Origin: Gammaproteobacteria bacterium
GTDB lineage: Bacteria > Pseudomonadota > Gammaproteobacteria > Steroidobacterales > GCA-2729495
Assembly (NCBI GenBank): GCA_021773815.1
Contig: JAJFJS010000009.1
Span: 1 to 48,500, forward strand
Direction of reading: 5' to 3'
DNA length: 48,500 bases
A model generated the notes under the pieces. That model was not told the DNA's origin. It was given only the letters and a program-made list of their open reading frames with translations, and made no database searches. The translations under genes were made by a program, and so were the position numbers. Each line of letters begins with the position of its first letter. Position 1 is the first letter of the stretch. This document shows, in pieces, positions 6,302-7,999 of this stretch.

Positions 6302-7048
6302 ATGTCTGAGCGACTGCAAAAATGGCTCGCGGGCCAGGGTTTGGGGTCGCGTCGCCAGTTGGAAACGGTGATCTCCGCGGGGCGCGTGACGGTCGACGGG
6401 CAGGTCGCCGAAATCGGTTGCAAGGTCGATGGAGACGAACGCATCGAAGTTGACGGACGCCTGATCCGTTTACCGAAGAATCAGGCTTTCCGTGCCAAGG
6501 CACTGATCTACCACAAGCCGAGCGGCGAAATCTGCACGCGTTCGGACCCGCAGGGGCGTCCGACGGTTTTCGACCATCTGCCGCGTCTCGCGCAGGGCCG
6601 ATGGATCGGCATCGGCCGGCTCGACTACCAGACATCCGGCCTGTTATTGATGACGAACGACGGTGAATTGGCGAATCGAATGATGCATCCGTCCGCGGCG
6701 CTGCCGCGCGAGTATTCGGTTCGCGTCATCGGTGAGGCCGATGCCGCAGTCCTGCGCAAATTGCGCCGCGGTGTCGAGCTCGAGGACGGCTTGGCTAAGT
6801 TCGATCAAATCGAATTTGCCGGTGGTGAGGCGCTCAATCATTGGTATACGGTCGTCGTCTCCGAGGGCCGCAATCGACTCGTGCGACGTTTGTGGGAAGC
6901 CGTCGGATTTCGCGTTAGTCGACTGATCCGGATACGTTTCGGCCCGATTCGCCTGGAACGTTCCCTGCACATCGGCAAGAACCGTTTTCTGACTCCGGCA
7001 GAACTGGCCACGCTTTACGAGGCGGTCGGCCTGGAAGTGCCTGCCTAG
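6302..7048 (+). CDS. rluB: 23S rRNA pseudouridine(2605) synthase
   Basis: 248 residues. An S4 RNA-binding domain is at the N-terminus (ERLQKWLAGQGLGSRRQLE) and an RsuA/RluB-type catalytic domain follows, with the catalytic Asp D108 in GRLDYQTSGLLLMTNDGEL. The later motif EGRNRLVRRLWEAVGF is the family's R-rich signature. It modifies U2605 (E. coli numbering) in 23S rRNA. The usual lysine- or arginine-rich C-terminal tail of E. coli RluB is absent. The TAG stop (7046-7048) is formed by the first three bases of the inverted-repeat element at 7046-7301, so that element abuts or has replaced the original 3' end. Confidence 0.93.
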   Translation: MSERLQKWLAGQGLGSRRQLETVISAGRVTVDGQVAEIGCKVDGDERIEVDGRLIRLPKNQAFRAKALIYHKPSGEICTRSDPQGRPTVFDHLPRLAQGRWIGIGRLDYQTSGLLLMTNDGELANRMMHPSAALPREYSVRVIGEADAAVLRKLRRGVELEDGLAKFDQIEFAGGEALNHWYTVVVSEGRNRLVRRLWEAVGFRVSRLIRIRFGPIRLERSLHIGKNRFLTPAELATLYEAVGLEVPA

Positions 7049-7301
7049 TGTCCTGTGCGACTCATTCGCGTCATTTCAGAGTCCACAGAATGGTCCGATA
7101 CAAGGCGCATTCCGCGGGTAATATCTGGATATTGGCAAGGGATGCAACGCCGTAGCGGGGCATTCTGTGGACTCCCGGAGGGCGCGCCGCACAACATCTG
7201 TGACCGCGTTGCCTCCCCTTGGCAATGGAATACGGAACGCGCCTTGTCACAGATCTTGTGCGGCGCGCTGAAAGGACGCGAATGAGTCGCACAGGACACT
7301 A
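7046..7301. mobile_element. MITE-like nested inverted-repeat element
   Basis: A 256-bp element fills the rluB-glycosylase gap. The outer inverted repeats are 34 bp, 7046-7079 and 7268-7301, with 33 matches; the first 27 bp, including the terminal TA, are perfect. Exactly where the left arm ends, a second inverted repeat starts (7079-7092 with 7161-7174, 14 of 14). After a 7-nt spacer a third follows (7182-7204 with 7246-7268, 22 of 23), ending where the right outer arm begins. A single strand can therefore fold as a three-way junction. Terminal TA dinucleotides are what IS630/Tc1-mariner-type insertion would leave. It carries no transposase. Mobility is inferred; no second copy was seen in the window. 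Confidence 0.7.
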
Positions 7302-7306
7302 ATTCA

Positions 7307-7999
7307 ATGTCGGCCGATCGTGCCATCGATGCGCGGCGACTGGAGGCATCGTGTCGTGATTTGATCGGTCGGTATGACGTTGCCGACTGGTGGCCGGCGC
7401 AAACGCAATTTGAGGTGCTGGTCGGGGCCGTGTTGGTGCAGAACACGCGCTGGATGAACGTCTCGACCGCCATTCTGGAACTGCGCCGGACAGGCTTTCT
7501 TGCAGCACGGCGGCTGTGTGAAATCGACCCGGCGTTGTTGCAGGAGTTGATTCGGCCGGCCGGCTGTCAGCGCGTCAAGGCGCGCCGGCTCGTTAGCCTC
7601 GCGACATGGATCCATGACGCCGGTGGCCTGCATGCGTTGGATCGTTTGCCGACACCGGAACTGCGTTCGGGACTGCTCGGCGTGCATGGCATCGGCTACG
7701 AAACGGCGGATGCCATCCTCGGATTCGGTTTTCAGCGACGGGTGTTCATCGCCGATCGATATGCGCGGACGTGGTTGATGCGAATGGGTCTGGTGTCGGA
7801 CGCGGAACCTCAAGGCTACGAGTCCTGTCGCCGGACGGTCGAATCCGCGCTGCTCGGCAGTCCGCTGTGCATGAACGATCTGCACGCCGCGATCGTGTTG
7901 CATGGGCAGGCCCATTGCGGCCGTCAGCCCCGATGCCTGGATTGTCCATTAACGACCTGGTGCGGGCAAAACGGATTCGGATTGCCGCCTCCGGCCTGA
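7307..7999 (+). CDS. HhH-GPD DNA glycosylase, MagIII / endonuclease III-like
   Basis: 230 residues. The fold of endonuclease III is clear: VLVQNTRWMNV (about residues 43-53), hairpin GVHGIGYETADAIL (125-138), catalytic Asp D150 in IADRYARTW, and an iron-sulfur cluster of C204, C210, C213 and C219. The lysine that makes endonuclease III a lyase is replaced by E132, as I recall for Helicobacter MagIII 3-methyladenine glycosylase. A monofunctional alkyl-base glycosylase is therefore more likely than a bifunctional endonuclease III. The ATG lies 5 nt after the inverted-repeat element, so its ribosome-binding site (AGGA at 7293-7296) is inside that element. Confidence 0.85.
   Translation: MSADRAIDARRLEASCRDLIGRYDVADWWPAQTQFEVLVGAVLVQNTRWMNVSTAILELRRTGFLAARRLCEIDPALLQELIRPAGCQRVKARRLVSLATWIHDAGGLHALDRLPTPELRSGLLGVHGIGYETADAILGFGFQRRVFIADRYARTWLMRMGLVSDAEPQGYESCRRTVESALLGSPLCMNDLHAAIVLHGQAHCGRQPRCLDCPLTTWCGQNGFGLPPPA

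Follow-up and report, generated by a model that had tools for sequence, protein, structure and literature searches.

A TA-flanked element with IS630-type ends, probably one of a large MITE family with a covarying folded interior

Introduction

REP and REPIN sequences are presumed to be moved in trans by Y1 transposases of the RAYT group. Among MITEs related to IS630 elements, RUP is paired with IS630-Spn1 in PMC2229807. The same review lists Correia/NEMIS, ERIC and YPAL repeats at about 100 to 200 bp, for one genus or related genera in each case (PMC2229807). For Pseudomonas fluorescens, PMC2718517 gives the intergenic repeat R6 a length of 177 bp with 34-bp inverted repeats; IS elements, too, are flanked there by R0 and R2 repeats.

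We analysed a stretch of 48,500 nucleotides (hereafter the window) from contig JAJFJS010000009.1 of a Gammaproteobacteria assembly, GCA_021773815.1. It holds a 256-bp element, at positions 7046-7301, which is compared below with these systems. A description of the family to which it belongs was found in none of the matches listed for open-licence PMC text.

Results

Layout and fold of the element

The initial annotation had described a 34-bp outer repeat around two hairpins bordering it exactly, and alignment and folding both confirmed this. The 34-nt outer arms are identical at 33 of 34 positions and enclose two long hairpins, 7079-7174 and 7182-7268, which lie 7 nt apart and whose outer borders coincide with the end of the outer repeat. 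The left terminal inverted repeat, TAGTGTCCTGTGCGACTCATTCGCGTCATTTCA, covers 7046-7078 on the plus strand, and the right one covers 7269-7301 on the minus strand. TA is present at both element ends, as had been claimed, which supports TA as the target. The single-strand DNA fold of the element reached −103.3 kcal/mol, against −43.8 +/− 3.6 for 200 dinucleotide shuffles (z −16.7), none of which was as stable; folded as RNA, the element gave a z of −15.5.

A single hairpin of about 97 nt underlies both arms, which are inverted relative to each other and have diverged. Arm 1 (7079-7174, plus strand) scored 89.4 bits with the covariance model R1 described below, and arm 2 (7182-7268, minus strand), the inverted diverged copy, scored 64.2 bits on the minus strand; both arms are themselves among the 48 rows from which the model was built. 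The conserved core, placed with alignment A1, reads CAAGGCGC on the 5′ side of arm 1 (7101-7108, plus strand) and GCAACG on its 3′ side (7144-7149, plus strand). In arm 2, the sequence and alignment A1 place GCAACG at 7207-7212 and CAAGGCGC at 7239-7246, both on the minus strand. Between the arms, the linker CCCGGAGGG (7174-7182, plus strand) is a possible micro-hairpin, and CCGNAGG or CCTNCGG occupies the same place in 45 of the 62 two-arm elements introduced below. Because this linker can form a micro-hairpin, the junction is as aptly called four-way as three-way: the three nested repeats and the fold of the initial annotation are real, and its label is one of two that fit.

No open reading frame of at least 80 aa lies wholly within the element in the ORF list of the window; a minus-strand frame, 7045-7473, spans it and reaches into the neighbouring gene. 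The element adjoins a gene on both sides, as first noted. Upstream, an rluB-like (pseudouridine synthase) frame, 6302-7048 on the plus strand, stops on TAG, the first three bases of the element; downstream, a glycosylase-like frame (7307-7999, plus strand), whose orthologue lies beside rluB in 6 relatives, starts 5 bp past it. Both gene names, taken from the initial annotation and from general knowledge, are presumptive. With the right end of the element (AGGACACTA, window positions 7292-7309) comes an AGGA that precedes the ATG of the glycosylase gene by 10 nt and may serve as a ribosome-binding site.

Copies of the element and sites without it

The element is mobile, because further copies lie in its own genome and 6 relatives keep the rluB-glycosylase pair without it. 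The genome of origin contains another full copy, 81% identical, as well as a copy without arm 2, cut at the base of that arm, and a fragment. Among 60 related genomes a DNA match was found in 2, the own genome and G056, of the same order. In a family search of 40 genomes, own included, the glycosylase gave a match in 7, and in the other 6 rluB adjoins it with no space for the element. In a comparison with P. aeruginosa, made at the level of genes and not base-exact, the gene pair was again present without the element; sites lacking it in relatives were all seen as gene pairs, at gene-level resolution. The initial annotation had proposed mobility and named, as an argument against it, a single copy conserved in all relatives; this was not what the relatives showed. 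The end-pair pattern occurs in 7 of the 296 genomes of the order, own included (a reversed-pattern control gave 0), and BLAST with the G056 element detected relatives in 28 of these 296 genomes. In G436, arms of equal score were found at eight places. Taken together, the element is short, holds no coding gene, has terminal inverted repeats and dispersed copies, and its sites are found without it at gene level, as is the case for MITEs.

In view of the strong fold and of the covariation reported below, one might think of an immobile feature of the rluB operon, either a structured RNA or a regulatory element. However, the gene pair occurs without the element in the 6 relatives, copies lie at unrelated loci and no Rfam match reached its gathering score, so that we give this reading next to no credence; the dispersed copies already refute it. 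The Rfam search of positions 6900-7450 returned two chance-level matches of 14 bits, for gathering scores of 50 and 90, and nine further loci gave no match.

A conserved, covarying arm

A scan for end pairs returned 110 stretches in the genome_contigs set, 80 of which were taken as loci. With the window copy added, two arms of at least 70 nt were present in the folds of 62 of these 81 elements. Of the others, 18 were put aside from the folds by hand and 1 more failed the fold filter; as some of those set aside do have arm cores (by the model in L089 and L151, by eye in L146), 62 of 81 is a conservative figure. The 62 two-arm elements come from records of Gamma- and Alphaproteobacteria, Burkholderiaceae, Acidobacteria and Bdellovibrionales.

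Arm 1 and reverse-complemented arm 2 align as one motif (alignment A1, 48 rows). A variable stem of about 20 bp comes first, then the core, then another variable stem, and last a terminal hairpin close to AATGGC. The core, C-AA-G-GC-G / C-AA-CGCNG, surrounds a G-C pair present in 48 of 48 rows, and beside this invariant pair three unpaired columns, two of A and one of T, are kept in at least 90% of the 48 arms. Standard pairs fill 88.1% of the cells of A1, against 55.4% after shuffling; cells changed on both sides number 547 against 168, and the covariation score is 0.842 against 0.233. For each of these three measures, none of 500 shuffles was as high. When partners were slid by 1 to 3 columns, pairing fell to 36-44% and the covariation score to 0.14-0.18. 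Of the 33 pairs, 32 had changes on both sides; 70 of 500 shuffles did as well, so that this count does not discriminate alone. A1 was built from the 57 arms that remained once those over 80% alike and those not 88-104 nt long had been discarded, with arm 2 of the window element added; 10 arms were then left out (arm 2 of L083, both arms of L112, L117, L144 and L149, one of L155), which gave 48 rows. This selection favours a clean consensus. The rows also come only from elements with a two-arm fold, a choice that favours pairing; these elements had been detected by their ends alone.

The stems vary freely and stay paired. As the A's left unpaired next to the invariant pair do not change while the two sides of the stems drift in step, it is apparently the folded form that is retained. 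We infer selection on this form. Long palindromes can be corrected by template switching, and paired stems could partly reflect such repair instead of selection. Carried to its end, this gives an ordinary IS630 MITE with a functionless interior, its hairpins held perfect by quasipalindrome correction and by copy number. The own-genome copy cut at the base of arm 2 and the solo end palindromes of 35-47 bp described below are what hairpin slippage would produce in such an element. Correction should, however, erase unpaired core bases, yet the A, A and T columns persist, and a core common to elements with IS630-like and with IS5-like ends is not expected of filler. We therefore regard a functionless interior as unlikely.

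Spread and pairing of the arms

The arm covariance model matched 125 of the 369 genomes of the window's class, in 99 of 272 genera (E ≤ 0.001), no more than 11 candidates being scored in each genome. Deeper scoring gave 67 matches each in G591 and G510, 39 in G311, 30 in G132 and 5 in the window's genome. Arm hits were present in 68 of 83 loci, and 60 of these 68 have their arms in plus-then-minus order; some of the loci overlap one another. The two arms were 7-8 nt apart in 58 of the 60 pairs; minus-then-plus pairs were never seen. The remaining 8 loci have a single arm or another layout, and L237 additionally holds two same-strand arms.

Several arrangements were recorded besides. In the planctomycete Pla86, 165-bp single-arm hairpins with IS630-type ends (L151 3406-3676, L202 2529-2693, L205 2105-2269) may be a simpler form; the L151 stretch scored 35.7 bits with the arm model, and L202 failed to reach the E 0.01 threshold. 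G436 has two family elements with unlike ends side by side, sharing a common TA (L276 132-660; L279 298-826). One 33.4-bit arm hit (L101 4598-4691) lies away from the end-pair match that defined its locus. Finally, solo palindromes of 35-47 bp with the same ends and no arms were seen at L064 2566-2612, L062 2005-2044, L068 2434-2468 and L199 1396-1431; these are perhaps arm-less derivatives.

Ends of several types, and their transposase partners

Terminal repeats of at least 31 nt were found in 35 of 40 arm pairs. The five pairs without one are L222, L242, L250, L045 and L049, the partner positions being guessed in four of them, and the 69-nt repeat of L248 is probably a contig-end effect. The end types, about 31-35 bp long, are unlike: TAGTGTCCTG, TAGTGTGCTG, TAGTGTGGTG, TAGTGTACTG, TAGTACTCNNTCAAGG, TAGTGGTCCAACCA, TAGTACANCNACCA, TAGGGAACCGC and others. 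Elements of the single genome G436 have at least two types, TACTAAGACAAACG and TAGGGCCTGTTAACAC, and also a third, TATTAACCCGG. Ends of type TATTAAYCCGGYAACYAAATAT bound two elements, L272 1127-1376 and L259 about 1828-2077, each adjoining a truncated IS630 frame. The one G591 element with readable ends has TAGGGCCTGTTGCCG, matched at 30 of 30 positions; in that reading an end pair was obtained in 5 of 14 loci, that of L309 being doubtful. Ends 5 bp longer (TAGTGTAGTGTCCTG) were present on one or both sides of L083, L084, L085, L095, L096, L113, L114, L120, L128 and L160.

We compared 8 element ends with 10 hand-picked IS ends, transposase family names being those of the record annotation or of a PF13358 match. 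One class of IS630 ends is TAGTGTCCTGAGTCATTAATTCG and one of IS5-family ends TAGGGNCTGTTGACGTTT. IS630 elements with both ends beginning TAGTGTCCTG were found in 4 of 5 plasmid loci, in L199 and in L256; the ends of the plasmid IS630 elements read TAGTGTCCTGAGTC. The end of the window element agrees with the best picked IS630 end at 20 of 26 positions, the first 10 being identical, and same-end elements in G132 reach 23 of 26. IS630-type elements with like ends, for which the initial annotation had suggested a search, thus exist, and the window element shares its ends with autonomous IS630 elements. The end of the IS630 element L263 matches those of the elements L247, of the TAGTACANCNACCA type, at 24 of 26 positions and L238 at 22 of 26. 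Sister elements share theirs with autonomous members of the IS5 family: L318, with both IS ends of the TAGGGCCTGTTAACAC type, agrees with a G436 element at 25 of 26 positions, and both ends of L322 are of class TAGGGNCTGTTGACGTTT, as on plasmid elements of P. aeruginosa (L321) and Azotobacter (L320), the end class common to these and L322 being TAGGGNCTGTTGACG. One arm each of L320 and L321 reaches the model threshold; in L326, another of these plasmid elements, and in the G436 elements both arms are matched, some weakly.

A partner IS630 transposase (PF13358) was not found in the genome of the window element, which is 98.95% complete. In three sets of element-carrying genomes PF13358 was detected in 1 of 8 (a fragment), 8 of 20 and 11 of 40. 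Where the ends of a resident IS630 and those of an element could both be read in one genome, many IS630 loci having given no ends, they mostly disagreed: they differed in G436, G510 and G591, and in G311 agreed mainly in the first 10 bases. Among the IS loci searched, the arm model placed no arm inside a transposase frame. Three arm hits lie beside and outside truncated IS630 frames (L272, L259, L261), and two of these, L272 and L259, are separate elements of 244-250 bp with their own ends. That same-end partners are seldom met within one genome counts against the main reading given below; we infer movement in trans from shared ends alone. An internally deleted IS630 MITE, with ends TAGTGTCCTGAGTCATTAATTC and no arms, was met in Mycobacterium simulans (L082 4841-5092; L141 1426-1677) and contrasts with the window family.

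The sharing of ends bears also on the idea that the element is the palindromic end, or a relic, of a virus or rolling-circle replicon. Its topology, A-B-B′-C-C′-A′, recalls parvovirus terminal repeats, and the initial annotation judged it closer to viral or rolling-circle ends than to a plain MITE. The first half of this judgement was not supported: the ends are TA-flanked transposon ends common to IS630 and IS5 elements, copies are many and dispersed over genomes, and the interior has none of the larger frames. The end-pair pattern had no match in viral contigs, the window copy had no BLAST match in phages or in plasmids, and L223 had none in phages; on these grounds a viral or plasmid origin was rejected, and a viral or rolling-circle end is extremely improbable. 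The second half stands, a strongly covarying fold in the interior setting the element apart from a plain MITE.

Target site and stop codons

A C precedes the TA at 110 of 124 flanks. Frames that reach the element were counted if open for 100 codons or more, rather than by gene annotation. Among 57 ends with such an incoming frame, TAG was in frame as a stop at 39, and the two other frames accounted for 10 and 8 (p = 7×10−8 versus one third). This value treats ends as independent and overstates the significance, since Reinekea, Aquisalimonas and other organisms each contributed several elements. Both ends are in-frame TAG stops in 8 of the 62 elements. We explain the excess of TAG stops by a CTAG target together with the survival of insertions that leave genes whole. 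The window copy lies at CTAA, with flanks GCC-TA and TA-ATTC as read from the sequence; its site without the element would read GCC-TAA, still a stop. We also considered whether element ends supply start codons: candidates lay at 0-9 nt from 14 of 117 ends, at 10-19 nt from 9 and at 20-59 nt from 21, and no claim is made.

The position of elements exactly at the stops of open frames, often at one end and in those 8 cases at both, would suit an interior that acts mainly as an RNA device, its arms capping mRNA 3′ ends in read-through transcripts, blocking exonucleases or insulating convergent genes, as REP elements do. The high stability of the RNA fold and the conserved loop columns would agree with such a role. 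Nevertheless, no clear strand bias relative to the incoming frame was observed (16 versus 11), and the scan of positions 6900-7450 found no terminator- or promoter-like site. Moreover, inverted arms make the two strands equivalent, which fits DNA equally: as each strand has one sense copy and strand bias is not clear, the data fit single-stranded DNA and RNA alike. A mainly RNA-level function is a possible, if somewhat doubtful, account.

Discussion

The element at 7046-7301 is very probably a MITE with IS630-type ends, belonging to a large family whose folded interior does not depend on a particular transposase. Its insertion would have been at a TA in the rluB-glycosylase gap, its own TAG now terminating rluB. 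The plan of the family would be end repeat, arm, micro-linker, inverted arm, end repeat, the ends being the putative sites recognised by a transposase acting in trans. The interior would be independent of any single transposase, because the ends of some subfamilies match IS630 elements and those of others the IS5 family; since the ends belong to two families, the core is presumably not a site for one transposase. It may be kept as a single-strand fold, either in the single-stranded DNA of replication or transposition, or in read-through transcripts. The arm lost at its base in the own-genome copy and the solo end palindromes suggest that hairpins form during replication.

A bolder proposal, to which we give slightly less than even confidence, is that of a transposase-independent mobile module: an ancient folded DNA or RNA core that some factor shared by many bacteria would recognise, and which would repeatedly gain unrelated transposon ends, outlive any transposase and land on stop codons at little cost to the host. 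MITEs are usually defined by their transposase, whereas here the interior is conserved and structured, and the ends are exchangeable. With the arm present in about a third of the sampled genomes of the class, the benefit of a folded core to a mobile element becomes testable, the benefits at issue being replication, synapsis, host tolerance and mRNA protection. The family also adds a large covarying structure without an Rfam match in the stretches tested.

How does this family compare with known repeats? REP and REPIN sequences also consist of palindromes in inverted pairs in intergenic DNA, but they are without long terminal repeats with TA, and neither their palindrome size of 20-40 bp nor their ends fit. 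P. fluorescens R0, R2 and R6 resemble the window family in having inverted repeats (34 bp in R6), a likeness drawn by description only from PMC2718517. Correia/NEMIS, ERIC and YPAL are, like it, structured intergenic repeats with a target duplication, mostly TA-flanked. In contrast with them, and again comparing by description only, the window family measures about 265 bp, has a two-arm junction and extends over several phyla. IS630-related MITEs such as RUP, with IS630-Spn1, share with it the TA target, ends common with IS630 elements and the lack of a protein. Unlike these, the window family has a conserved, covarying pair of arms, IS5-type ends as well, and a wide spread. We thus read the window element as one copy of a widespread, unlabelled MITE superfamily, with a folded core that is independent of its transposase.
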